This document shows positions 9,491-18,061 of a stretch of 52,600 bases of DNA, one piece after another. The DNA is taken from assembly GCA_003605065.1 (NCBI GenBank), contig QZJM01000072.1:1-52600 (forward strand), read 5' to 3'. Every line of letters starts with the position of its first letter. Within the stretch, counting starts at the first letter, position 1. The notes under the pieces were generated by a model. The model worked only from the letters and a program-made list of their open reading frames with translations, was not told where the DNA came from and searched no databases. Source of the stretch: Dethiobacter sp. (GTDB taxonomy: Bacteria > Bacillota > Dethiobacteria > DTU022 > UBA8154). Position numbers and translations under genes: made by a program.

Positions 9491-9567
9491 TGGCGCGCCC
9501 GGCAGGATTTGAACCTGCGACCTCCTGATTCGTAGTCAGTTACTCTATCCGGCTGAGCTACGGGCGC
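9491..9567 (-). tRNA. tRNA-Arg (ACG anticodon)
   Basis: GCGCCCGTAGCTCAGCCGGATAGAGTAACTGACTACGAATCAGGAGGTCGCAGGTTCAAATCCTGCCGGGCGCGCCA. Confidence 0.95.
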
Positions 9568-9573
9568 ATATTA

Positions 9574-9668
9574 TGGCGGAGAGAGTGGGATTCGAACCCA
9601 CGAAGCGAGCTTTTACCCGCTTAATCGCTTAGCAGGCGACCGCCTTCGACCGACTCGGCCATCTCTCC
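9574..9668 (-). tRNA. tRNA-Ser (GCT anticodon)
   Basis: GGAGAGATGGCCGAGTCGGTCGAAGGCGGTCGCCTGCTAAGCGAT...GTGGGTTCGAATCCCACTCTCTCCGCCA; long variable arm. Confidence 0.95.
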
Positions 9669-9684
9669 GCGTTTAAACACTCTT

Positions 9685-9771
9685 TGGCGGAGGGGGTGGG
9701 ATTCGAACCCACGGCTCTTTCGAGTCACCGGTTTTCAAGACCGGCTCCTTAAACCGCTCGGACACCCCTCC
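9685..9771 (-). tRNA. tRNA-Ser (TGA anticodon)
   Basis: GGAGGGGTGTCCGAGCGGTTTAAGGAGCCGGTCTTGAAAACCGGTGAC...GTGGGTTCGAATCCCACCCCCTCCGCCA. Confidence 0.95.
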
Positions 9772-13350: not shown

Positions 13351-15492
13351 CTACTCCGGATTAATATAGAAAGGATACTTGAATTCCAGAACCGGGGAGG
13401 GATAGCCAAAAGGCGGCTTCCAGGGCTCGCCCTCCACGTATAAAACAATACTATTTAGCTGGAAGTTGCTGCCAAGAGTCAGCAGTATTGAATCCAAAAA
13501 GAGTGTCGCCAGTGCTTTCTCTTCCAGGCTTCCCTCCGGTGGAAATAATTTTATAAAGGAAGAATCCCAGTCCAGGATAATTTCTTCCCGCATAACCTTA
13601 ATGGTGCGCGGCTCCGGCACTAACGGAAGGAAACGCCTGCTTTCCGCCAGAAGGATCCTGAGCAGATCCTCAGGGGTATTATATTTATTCCCCAGCCGTA
13701 CTGCCTCACGGGGAAGCAGGAAATAACGTTCTCCGGAGCGGTAGGGGAGATAAAGCATTGTTTTACTCTTAGCAGGGGGACGCGAAGGAAAGACACCATT
13801 AATCATAAAGCCTCCGGCACCGAAGGCCTGAGCCTTCTTTCCTTCCACCAGAAAACGGATCCCTTCGACAGAAGAGAACTGGGAGGCCGTAAGTACCAGG
13901 GAATCAATGATGCCGGTAACCTGCCTGGAATCTCCCAGCCGGTTAAGTTCTTCGGGAAGATCAATCAGGGCGATACCATCCTCAAATATTACTTTAATGC
14001 CGGCATCTTTGGGGATAGTGCGGGAAAGGCCGCTCAAACGGCGCGGCCCTTTAACAAGCTCGTTAACGGCAGCCTGCAGGACTTGGTCAGTTGTCTTTAC
14101 ACTGCGGCTTACAGGAACCAGGTGCAGGGCATAGTCATCATAAAAATAGAGGGTCAGGTAAAGCTCTTCTCCTGATTTGGTAAAAGTAACGGGACGGTAC
14201 AATTCCTTGCCCTGTTCCAAATCTTCGCCTGTCTCTATTTCCTGTGAAAAATCGGCGGCAGGCATATCCAGAATAAAAATATTCCCCTCATTTCCCGCCA
14301 GGGCCAGAATGTTTCCATCACTTGACAGGGCGATTTTTTCGATACGGCTGGCCATTTCTATTTCCTGCAGGGTGTGGCCGTCTCTGTCAAGCACCAGTAC
14401 CCTGCTGAAGTCTTCACTGTACTCCTGCCAGGAGGAAGCCACGATCCTCTCCCCATAGCGGGAAGTCTGTATATACGCACCGCTGGGTATTTTCTTTTCC
14501 CATAACAAAAAGCCATCCTTGTGAAACAGGAAGAGGTTGCTGCCAACCCCGGGAAAGGAGCTGTAGGCAAGTATATGCTCCCCTTTTTCCGTCAAGTTCA
14601 GTGAACTGATTTCCGTGCTCAGGGAGTGGCGCCACATAAGCAGGGGGGATGTTTCCCCCTTCGGTTCCAGGTTATAAAAATAAAGCACATTCCCGCTGTA
14701 AATAACAGCAAACTCCCCGTTCCCGGAAATATCAGCCGCGGAAGCTTTTTCGGTCCACAGGATTTCCCCGTTTTTCAGAGCTGCCAGGCTGTTCCCCTCC
14801 GGCCCTTTTTCCAGGTAGTAAAGTTTATCTTCAGACAGGAGGTCAAGCTGCAGAAGTGGGCCTGTTTCTTTTTCCCACAACAGAGTTCCCCACTGGTCAA
14901 AAAGATAAAGCTTATAAGCACTGTTTCCTTCTTTTATGGATACGGCCAGGCATTCGCTATCCCGGGACAGGGCCATCTGCTCCACTACTCCTTCAAAACT
15001 CTTTTCCCAGGAGGTGCGGCCGTTATAATGTAAAAAATATACTTTTCCCTGGTCTGTTCCCACGGCGATATAATACCCGTTAGCGTCCAGTTCAGCGACT
15101 ACAGGAAGGCCTTGGAAAGCAGCTTCCCATTTCAGGCGGCCCTGGTTGTCCAGCATATTAACGGATCGGGCATCGGAGCTAAAGAGGATCTCTTTTCCGG
15201 AACCGGAGAGAGCAAGGGCATAGATCTTCATTTCCGGATTCATTACAGAAAAACGGCCTCTTAAAAGCATGTCACCACCGGTATTTTCGAGGCCTGTTAC
15301 CACCGGTTCTATGGGCGACTCCTGGGAATAAGGGATGAACGGAGCACAGGCAGAGCTTAAAAGAAGCAGCAGAAGCAGTACAAAGGCCCATGTTCCAGGA
15401 ATACAAACACAAGCCCCACCCAGGCAGGCATTTCTCCGGAAGAAATCTTTTTTCTTTTTTCTGTTTTTCCTGTAAAGTTTATAAAAAGTCAT
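13351..15492 (-). CDS. Putative lipoprotein with N-terminal beta-propeller and two C-terminal GerMN domains
   Basis: 713 aa; N-terminal hydrophobic segment with LLLLSSAC lipobox-like motif; repeated propeller blades (MALSRDSECLAVSIKEGNSAYKLYLFDQWGTLLWEKE...); two GerMN-like regions (TLYFYDDYALHLVPVSRSVKTTDQVLQAAVNELVKGP... and MLYLPYRSGERYFLLPREAVRL...LRILLAESRRFLPLVP). Confidence 0.8.
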   Translation of the reverse strand: MTFYKLYRKNRKKKKDFFRRNACLGGACVCIPGTWAFVLLLLLLLSSACAPFIPYSQESPIEPVVTGLENTGGDMLLRGRFSVMNPEMKIYALALSGSGKEILFSSDARSVNMLDNQGRLKWEAAFQGLPVVAELDANGYYIAVGTDQGKVYFLHYNGRTSWEKSFEGVVEQMALSRDSECLAVSIKEGNSAYKLYLFDQWGTLLWEKETGPLLQLDLLSEDKLYYLEKGPEGNSLAALKNGEILWTEKASAADISGNGEFAVIYSGNVLYFYNLEPKGETSPLLMWRHSLSTEISSLNLTEKGEHILAYSSFPGVGSNLFLFHKDGFLLWEKKIPSGAYIQTSRYGERIVASSWQEYSEDFSRVLVLDRDGHTLQEIEMASRIEKIALSSDGNILALAGNEGNIFILDMPAADFSQEIETGEDLEQGKELYRPVTFTKSGEELYLTLYFYDDYALHLVPVSRSVKTTDQVLQAAVNELVKGPRRLSGLSRTIPKDAGIKVIFEDGIALIDLPEELNRLGDSRQVTGIIDSLVLTASQFSSVEGIRFLVEGKKAQAFGAGGFMINGVFPSRPPAKSKTMLYLPYRSGERYFLLPREAVRLGNKYNTPEDLLRILLAESRRFLPLVPEPRTIKVMREEIILDWDSSFIKLFPPEGSLEEKALATLFLDSILLTLGSNFQLNSIVLYVEGEPWKPPFGYPSPVLEFKYPFYINPE

Positions 15493-15644
15493 ATGGCCCC
15501 TTCGTTTTAAATTATTTTACTTAGTACTATCCTGAAAATGCAAATCTGTCATAAATAATCCTTTGCCCATGAGAGAGCATTTTCTTTCCTCCGATGGTGA
15601 AGCAAAGCTTCATGGGTGTCTACAGCGAGAAGAATAAGTAAGCA

Positions 15645-15755
15645 AAGCCATGGGGACGGTTCTTTTAAGGTAGGGGACACACACCTCTTTCAGAGGAATG
15701 TCCCCATGGTGTGTCCCCATACCTTAACCAGGAAGACGATGGAACCGTAAGACCG
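15645..15755. repeat. REP-like nested-hairpin element
   Basis: Nested complementary arms ACGGTTC/GAACCGT, TAAGGTA/TACCTTA, GGGGACACAC/GTGTGTCCCC and inner CCTCT/AGAGG hairpin. Confidence 0.6.
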
Positions 15756-15897
15756 TGTGAAAATTAATTTTACAAATCATACGTCCCCGCTTCTTTCTTT
15801 ATTTAAGCTATTATTATTGGGATTAGGTATGTATATCATGCCAATTATGAATATTACTCCCCACTCTGGCCAGATTTTTTGACGATAAGATGACTTT

Positions 15898-17364
15898 TCA
15901 CACAGACTGCCGTCTCCGTGGCGTACTGACCTTTTCCAGTTCCTCCTTGTAATGCTGTATAGAGGGGTCTACGGGAAGAGTAAAGAAAAAGGTGCTTCCC
16001 AATCCCTCCTTGCTCTCCAGCACACCGATTGTTCCACCGTAATGCTCAACTGCTTCCTTGCAGATGGCCAGCCCCAGGCCTGTTCCGCCCAGGTAGCGGG
16101 ACCTGGCCTTGTCCACCCTGTAAAAACGCTCAAAAAGATAAGGGAGGGCTTCTTCCGGTATACCACAGCCGGTATCCTGAACAGTAACAATAATTTGATC
16201 GTCTTTGTTTTCGGCACTGAGTTTTAACCAGCCACCGGAAGGCGTATACTTGATAGCATTATCTAAAAGGTTAAAAAGAACCCTTTTTAAATCTTCGGAA
16301 GAAACATACAGACAGGGAAGATCTCCAGGGATTTCCGAAAAGAGCTTTAAACCTTTACGCTCCACGCGGGGGCGGGTTAAATCTAAAACTTCCTCCAGAA
16401 TTAACTTTAATGACAAGACCTCTCTTTTATCCGCTACTTCCTGTCTCCGGGTAAATTCCAGAAGATCTTCCACAAGGTATATTAAGCGCTGTGTTTCATG
16501 GTTGATATCCTCTAAAAACTCTTTCTGCTCTTGGGCATTTAATTCATAGTTCTGCAGGGACTGCAGGCAGATATGGATAGAAGCCAGGGGTGTCCTCAAT
16601 TCATGGGATACATCGGCTACGAAGCGGGTTAAACGCTGGTTCATATCCTTTACCCTGGCGGCCATGACGTTAAACTGCTGGGCCAGGCGCCCAATTTCAT
16701 CCCCGGAATTGATGGGTATCTTCTGGTCCAGCTTGCCTTCAGCCATCTGCTGGGCCGCCATGGTCAGTTCCTTGATGGGTTCCGTAAGGTGATGGGCAAA
16801 GAGGATCACAAGACCACCGGCAAAAACCATGGCGACAAGAGTGGAAACAACAAGAAAACGGCGTACCGCCGTAAGAGTCTGGTAGACAGGCTTAAGGGAA
16901 GAAGACAGGAACACCGCTCCCAGGGGAGTATCACCCTTTTCCACCGGTACTGCCACCTGGAGGACCCACTGGTCTGAGAGGTCGCTGTATTGTATACTGC
17001 GGCCGGTGCCTCCTTCCAGGGCTTCTTTAATTTCTTCCCGTTCCATCTTCGTGCCTAAAAGCCCTCCGACGCGTAACGAATCCCCTACGACCGTTTTCTG
17101 CGGACTCACCACAATTATCCTGGCGTTAATCTGCCGGCTGAAATTTTCTGCTACGTTGCTTAAAAGAACGGCATCAGCGCCTTCCCGAAGATTGGTGGCA
17201 ATAAATTCGGCCGTCAGCCTGCCGGTCCGTTCCAGATTTTCTTCTGCGGAAGACAGGTAATATTTTTCAAGCATATTTAAAAGAATAAGTCCCGTAACCA
17301 GCATAACCACGGCAATAAGCAGCAAATATGTTATTGTCATGCGCTGGCGAATGCCGTTAAACAT
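15898..17364 (-). CDS. Two-component sensor histidine kinase with extracytoplasmic sensor and HAMP domain
   Basis: TM - extracellular loop - TM - HAMP; H-box FVADVSHELRTPLASI; N-box LLDNAIKYTP; DTGCGIPEEALPYLFERFYRVDKARSR; GGTGLGLAI. Confidence 0.95.
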   Translation of the reverse strand: MFNGIRQRMTITYLLLIAVVMLVTGLILLNMLEKYYLSSAEENLERTGRLTAEFIATNLREGADAVLLSNVAENFSRQINARIIVVSPQKTVVGDSLRVGGLLGTKMEREEIKEALEGGTGRSIQYSDLSDQWVLQVAVPVEKGDTPLGAVFLSSSLKPVYQTLTAVRRFLVVSTLVAMVFAGGLVILFAHHLTEPIKELTMAAQQMAEGKLDQKIPINSGDEIGRLAQQFNVMAARVKDMNQRLTRFVADVSHELRTPLASIHICLQSLQNYELNAQEQKEFLEDINHETQRLIYLVEDLLEFTRRQEVADKREVLSLKLILEEVLDLTRPRVERKGLKLFSEIPGDLPCLYVSSEDLKRVLFNLLDNAIKYTPSGGWLKLSAENKDDQIIVTVQDTGCGIPEEALPYLFERFYRVDKARSRYLGGTGLGLAICKEAVEHYGGTIGVLESKEGLGSTFFFTLPVDPSIQHYKEELEKVSTPRRRQSV

Positions 17365-17374
17365 TATCTAGTTC

Positions 17375-18061
17375 TTAGTCCTCTCTGAATTTATACCCGG
17401 TTCCCCATACGGTGAGGATCAAACCGGGATCTGCCGGAAATTCCTCGATCTTTTCCCGTAAATGCCTGACGTGGACATCTACAGTACGAACATCGCCGGA
17501 GTAATCTTCTCCCCAGATTTCCTCGAGCAGCTGCTCCCGGGAATAAACTTTACCCCGGTTGGAAGCCAGAAAGAGCAGCAGGGTATATTCTTTGGAGGTA
17601 AGGGCAACTTCCCGCCCTTTAATAGTAACCTTGTGCTTGATAATATCTATCTGTAAATCGCCTATTTTGATGATTTTTTTTCCGGCAGCGGTCTGCGGCA
17701 CGGTACGGCGTAAAATGGCTTTTATGCGCGCCAGAAGTTCCCGGGCATTAAAGGGCTTGGTCATGTAATCATCAGCTCCCAGCTCCAGGCCCAGAATTTT
17801 ATCTATATCTTCGTCACGGGCCGTAAGCATAATAATGGGAACATCGGAGTCCCGGCGTATGCTGCGGCAAACCTCATAGCCATCTATTTTGGGAAGCATC
17901 AGATCCAGGATAACAAGATCGGGTTCTTCTCTGGACATTGCGCTTAAAGCCTCTTCCCCGTCAAAGGCAACTTCCACACAGAATCCCTCTTTTTCCAGGT
18001 TAAACTTGAGGGCTTTGGACAGGGTTTTTTCATCCTCCACAAGGAGGATTTTCTTATTCAT
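17375..18061 (-). CDS. OmpR/PhoB-family response regulator
   Basis: MNKKILLVEDEKTLSKALKFNLEKEGF...VILDLMLPKIDGYEVCRSIR...LTSKEYTLLLFLASNRGKVYSREQLLEEIWGEDYSGDVRTVDVHVRHLREKIE. Confidence 0.96.
   Translation of the reverse strand: MNKKILLVEDEKTLSKALKFNLEKEGFCVEVAFDGEEALSAMSREEPDLVILDLMLPKIDGYEVCRSIRRDSDVPIIMLTARDEDIDKILGLELGADDYMTKPFNARELLARIKAILRRTVPQTAAGKKIIKIGDLQIDIIKHKVTIKGREVALTSKEYTLLLFLASNRGKVYSREQLLEEIWGEDYSGDVRTVDVHVRHLREKIEEFPADPGLILTVWGTGYKFRED

Follow-up and report, generated by a model that had tools for sequence, protein, structure and literature searches.

A regulator, a kinase and a propeller-GerMN protein on one strand

The window, by which we mean the whole stretch of DNA analysed (52,600 nucleotides of contig QZJM01000072.1 from Dethiobacter sp.), contains genes for a response regulator (RR), a sensor histidine kinase (HK) and an anchored extracytoplasmic protein (LP) that follow one another in this order on the minus strand. 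All three open reading frames were confirmed, and their coordinates bear out the one-strand order of regulator, kinase and lipobox-bearing protein that the first-pass annotation had described. The features, with coordinates in the window, are as follows.

17375–18061, minus strand: RR, OmpR-family response regulator, 228 aa, WalR-like (Response_reg and Trans_reg_C)
15898–17364, minus strand: HK, HAMP sensor histidine kinase, 488 aa, WalK-like, lacking PAS (domain profiles)
16876–17268, minus strand: HK extracytoplasmic Cache-like sensor domain, residues 33–163 (Pfam; domain absent from G072)
15493–15897, no strand: HK–LP intergenic stretch, with an imperfect GGGGAC-type inverted repeat at 15648–15709
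13351–15492, minus strand: LP, anchored propeller-GerMN-GerMN protein, 713 aa (Pfam and AlphaFold model)
15346–15405, minus strand: LP signal/anchor segment with candidate lipobox Cys49 (LSSAC; sequence)
14263–15264, minus strand: LP eight-bladed beta-propeller, residues 77–410 (AlphaFold model, Foldseek)
13807–14175, minus strand: LP GerMN domain 1, residues 440–562 (Pfam Germane, E 4.2e-21)
13354–13773, minus strand: LP GerMN domain 2, residues 574–713, with conserved PFYINPE terminus (hhalign, hmmsearch, model)

The trio is flanked upstream by a uracil-DNA glycosylase-like gene (UDG) and downstream by argS and serS, all three named from their protein sequences and from conservation among relatives. 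Three consecutive tRNA genes found with Rfam lie on the minus strand at 9494–9771, between a bipA-like gene and serS. Among relatives, the median spacing is −1 between RR and HK and about 90 bases between HK and LP, and these short distances fit co-transcription of the three genes. The HK–LP gap of the window, at 405 bases, exceeds that of most relatives; the imperfect inverted repeat within it contains GGGGACGGTTCTTTT and is possibly a small mobile repeat element.

The AlphaFold2 model of LP, built with 27 homologues, places 32 strands within residues 77–410, read as eight four-stranded blades, followed by a short disordered linker and two alpha/beta GerMN-like domains at about residues 443–549 and 579–703. 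Pfam assigns Germane to residues 447–553 and gives weak propeller matches at about 90–420, and in Foldseek the propeller matches many propellers. Modelling of residues 430–713 (pLDDT 91.8, pTM 0.89) resulted in a structure whose first four fold matches are to the tandem GerMN of B. subtilis GerM (6gzb). The second GerMN domain is recognized both by profile–profile comparison with the first (hhalign, 95.8%) and by its match to GerM (hmmsearch, E 5.6e-9). LP carries the GerMN (Germane) fold in two copies, and the domain order first proposed, an N-terminal propeller with two C-terminal GerMN-like domains, is confirmed by the model, Pfam, hhalign and hmmsearch; fold prediction, put forward at that stage as a check, returned the propeller and the tandem GerMN alike. 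GerMN1 is the most conserved part of the protein, with a mean column identity of 56% compared with 43% for GerMN2 and 39% for the propeller. Full-length homologues share a conserved RPYYINPE-like C-terminus, with INLED and INMEN among the variants of family f6, and the domain ends of GerM align with it. PADLOC gave no match for LP, and a defence role was ruled out on this empty result.

How is LP held at the membrane? The lipobox originally claimed for it is clear in relatives of families f6 and f8, but in the window Cys49 is preceded by S-S-A, a weak consensus, and in the eleven f3 proteins of alignment A1 the N-terminus is hydrophobic and has no lipobox cysteine. The membrane tether is conserved, and lipidation is probably not always present.

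Identity of the regulator and kinase

The first-pass annotation had likened the trio to the actinobacterial MtrAB-LpqB module. With the NCBIfam models, RR scores 277.5 bits for YycF (cut-off 340) versus 253.9 for MtrA (cut-off 300), and HK scores 335.4 bits for WalK (cut-off 725) versus 214.8 for MtrB (cut-off 450). Both proteins thus lie under the MtrA and MtrB equivalog cut-offs and, though YycF and WalK rank first, under the cut-offs of these models as well; the canonical walRK pair of the same genome is also under cut-off (327.6 and 540.6). The domain order of HK is HAMP-HisKA-HATPase, PAS was not found in it by Pfam, and sCache_like and Cache_WalK match just over cut-off, the latter marginally (PF23846, 27.9 bits versus 27); kinases of relatives reach 31.2 and 36 bits for Cache_WalK. 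The kinases of family f8 retain a PAS domain, so the full WalK-like architecture is present in this clade.

A canonical walR-walK(PAS)-yycH-yycI locus is encoded elsewhere in the genome (G000:C26:8000-23000, L076), and the window pair is hence not the sole Wal system with yycH and yycI. Regulators of both kinds are generally carried together by the genomes checked. In the RR tree, the window-type regulators form one clade (100/99) apart from canonical WalR (100/100, including one f5 member), MtrA falls outside the window-type clade, and an exact sister relation of window-type and canonical WalR is at best tentative (support 86/55). The recognition helix of the window regulator reads DVHVRHLREK and its wing TVWGTGYK, as compared with DVTVRRLREK and TKRGAGYY in the canonical WalR of the genome, and the differences in helix and wing between the two kinds are consistent. 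Such distinct DNA-reading elements suggest separate target genes, and thus that the window-type regulator may have a DNA specificity of its own, apart from that of canonical WalR. Because the scores lie nearer WalR and WalK than MtrA and MtrB, and the genome holds a canonical walRK-yycHI set, the pair is, as judged from sequence, best described as an additional WalRK-like system that accompanies the canonical set, and not as MtrAB.

Distribution, linkage and loss

LP is present in 54 of the 63 genomes of the class that are at least 90% complete. Wherever LP and HK lie on one contig in class genomes of this completeness, LP follows HK immediately and in the same orientation (52/52; coordinates were compared by eye, with family f8 judged from its loci). 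In G038 both genes are at contig ends, and LP without HK was seen only at contig ends, as in G053, where LP runs off a 6309-base contig. The co-occurrence of LP with the pair, on which the initial reading had been staked, therefore survived. The order HK-LP-argS is kept at eight related loci, including that of a Dethiobacter alkaliphilus bin, and in further full-length relatives wherever the locus extends far enough. Neither full-length LP nor its propeller family was found outside the class among 398 genomes sampled across the phylum, a sample in which scoring covered the top few candidates of each genome and may have passed over weak relatives; the propeller relatives recovered elsewhere in the phylum are generic propellers with no HK or RR match in their 1.5-kb flanks. 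UDG, argS and serS are linked to the module about as stably as LP, and synteny alone is for this reason no proof of function.

Several individual loci depart from the common pattern or carry additional features. An extra gene for a GerMN protein lies between LP and argS at L132:7673-8650 (G066), where the product has tandem Germane domains and a lipobox, and at L247:1382-2401 (G082). At L129:5300-5400, in the single-contig genome G083, an in-frame TGA precedes the open frame of LP, seemingly cuts off the signal peptide and may reflect a sequencing error, a pseudogene or a later start. The genes of L001, a record titled Desulfovibrio sp., are 79–94% identical to those of the window and syntenic with them, for which reason this MAG is probably mislabelled.

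Losses of LP, of its domains or of the whole module were also observed. RR-HK is joined directly to argS, with LP absent, in G007, G015, G022, G024 and G030, while in G026 LP is reduced to a propeller of 392 aa. G028 has lost the entire trio, and UDG and argS are now neighbours there. In G072 LP is absent before argS and the HK orthologue (L240:4886-6001), 371 aa long, has TM1 running straight into TM2; an in-frame deletion has removed the extracytoplasmic domain and left both TM segments, HAMP and the kinase in place. Of all the observations, this joint loss points most strongly to a functional link of LP with the kinase sensor, and it comes from a single genome, as no second species of the genus was found. 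Since G007/G015, G024 and G030 stand apart on the RR tree, these lineages and G072 add up to four or more occasions on which LP was lost and RR-HK kept, and LP is consequently not obligatory for retention of the kinase. G064, G078 and G084 were not counted as cases of co-absence, since argS was not detected in them either and the region is probably unassembled.

Distances of the LP propeller and the HK sensor correlate at 0.49 in a mirror-tree comparison corrected for ArgS and HK kinase distances (permutation p 0.001). However, in an ArgS-corrected control with 19 genomes, the canonical WalK sensor, which is unlinked to LP, performed no worse than the HK sensor (0.54 versus 0.49), and the comparison was for this reason rejected as evidence of specific LP–sensor covariation. 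Divergence of the HK sensor after LP loss is raised in L077 and L244 and slightly in L078, all of genus g4, but not in L082; accelerated sensor evolution following LP loss was not upheld either, being confined to g4 and not seen in G024.

A possible three-component envelope-sensing system

On balance we think it somewhat probable that RR, HK and LP form a three-component envelope-sensing system in which LP acts on the Cache-like domain of the kinase. LP would be anchored on the outside of the membrane, presenting its eight-bladed propeller and GerM-like tandem GerMN pair, and, by analogy with work in M. smegmatis (PMC5845573), would most likely modulate HK through the extracytoplasmic Cache-like domain, presumably by physical contact. 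LP may thereby set the kinase/phosphatase balance of HK and so the phosphorylation of the WalR-like regulator, which would act on target genes through its own DNA specificity; the signal is presumably the state of the cell wall or envelope, and the module would run parallel to the canonical WalRK-YycHI of the same cell. This reading is supported by the invariant HK–LP adjacency with LP lacking HK only at contig ends, the clean whole-module loss in G028, the loss of LP and sensor domain in G072, the short gene spacing and the presence of C. difficile WalA in the wal operon (PMC9210968). It is weakened by the persistence of RR-HK without LP in six genomes (G007, G015, G022, G024, G030 and G072), by inconsistent sensor divergence and non-specific covariation, by the equally stable linkage of UDG, argS and serS, and by the restriction of the joint loss to one genome.

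The main competing explanation, which we regard as unlikely though worth serious weight, is that LP has no regulatory effect on the kinase and is an envelope scaffold or wall-assembly factor that either just shares a conserved operon with RR-HK or is itself a target of the pair. Linkage of UDG, argS and serS with no obvious functional relation, loss of LP while the pair persists, the lack of a specific covariation signal and the structural role of tandem GerMN in GerM are all in keeping with a bystander of this kind. Against it, loss of LP in G072 coincides with loss of the kinase extracytoplasmic domain, G028 lacks all three genes with the neighbours remaining, and there is the precedent of LpqB (PMC3353115) and a suspicion of the same kind for WalA (PMC9210968). 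Within the three-component reading, a more tentative and rather doubtful variant holds that the Cache domain is mainly a docking site for LP and that the propeller-GerMN protein reads the signal, such that LP loss would make the sensor dispensable and deletable, as in G072; if so, the class would have two parallel WalK-type systems that differ in their accessories, YycHI versus a propeller-GerMN protein.

Two further explanations have far less in their favour. A role of LP in sporulation or germination like that of GerM, with the two-component system reporting spore status, is suggested by the resemblance of the tandem GerMN to GerM and by SpoIIIAH in the genome, but is very improbable: LP is present in 19 of the 20 class genomes where SpoIIIAH was not detected and is missing from 8 of the 43 SpoIIIAH-positive ones (3 of these 8 also lack detectable argS, and the region may be unassembled). 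LP is thus not tied to sporulation, and of the earlier suggestion of a link to cell-envelope or spore status the spore part is not supported. GerM orthologues are free-standing tandem GerMN proteins belonging to the sporulation set, whereas LP has a propeller attached and is kept where SpoIIIAH is undetected; the real GerM of the genome is probably a separate tandem-GerMN protein of 354 aa, encoded beside an Asp/Glu racemase-family gene at G000:C3:72301-74360 (L093:4302-6361). SpoIIIAH went undetected across several related f3 genera (G029, G031, G034-G036, G043-G046, G051-G054 and others), which suggests that sporulation was lost within the order. True orthology to MtrAB-LpqB, whether by common descent with Actinobacteria or by transfer from them, and with the LP domains permuted, is disfavoured and seems scarcely credible. 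The gene order is identical and the two kinds of domain are the same, yet RR and HK are closer to the WalR and WalK models, MtrA lies outside the window-type clade, full-length LP is confined to the class within the phylum sample, and the LpqB propeller family PF10647 has no match in LP (Pfam scan, E<=10), which leaves a shared origin with LpqB unsupported. What remains of the likeness to MtrAB-LpqB is the one-strand RR-HK-lipoprotein order and a lipoprotein of GerMN plus propeller type.

LpqB lowers the activity of MtrB and is known to have its GerMN domain before the propeller, an order reversed in LP, where the propeller is followed by two GerMN domains. LpqB interacts with the extracellular domain of MtrB (PMC3353115). 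The closest described system is the WalA-WalRK system of C. difficile, where the operon walA-walR-walK-truA2 encodes a predicted beta-propeller lipoprotein, WalA, which its authors compare with MtrAB and suspect of modulating WalK (PMC9210968); the literature therefore already includes a Bacillota Wal operon with a propeller lipoprotein and its comparison to MtrAB-LpqB. WalA is reported to have no known homologues outside C. difficile (PMC10601699). Both systems belong to Bacillota and comprise a WalRK-like pair, a Cache-HAMP kinase without PAS and a propeller lipoprotein in the operon. They differ in that walA precedes walR and truA2 follows, whereas LP is downstream of HK, in that GerMN domains are not reported in the published description of WalA, whereas LP has two, and in that the C. 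difficile system is the essential Wal system, whereas the window pair is a second one. A propeller lipoprotein beside a two-component system, AOT13_14265, was also described in Parageobacillus thermoglucosidasius, with a comparison to LpqB drawn by its authors (PMC13068155); seven blades are predicted for it versus eight for LP, and GerMN is not mentioned. B. subtilis GerM shares the tandem GerMN fold (6gzb) but has no propeller and acts in sporulation. With WalRK-YycHI the module shares a WalK-type kinase, an extracytoplasmic Cache-like domain and membrane accessory proteins, along with PAS in f8 relatives, but its accessory is LP instead of YycHI and its regulator has a separate clade and recognition helix. 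Our literature search found no description of a propeller-then-tandem-GerMN protein with a two-component system.

These comparisons suggest that WalK/MtrB-type kinases have repeatedly gained a propeller protein anchored in the membrane, which may or may not carry GerMN domains, through domain assemblies that differ from case to case. Throughout an entire class of anaerobes, a second system of WalRK-like type is maintained in addition to the canonical set. Lineages that have lost LP, its GerMN domains, the sensor part of the kinase or the module altogether provide a natural deletion series, which makes it possible to test by comparison how LpqB or WalA acts on its kinase.
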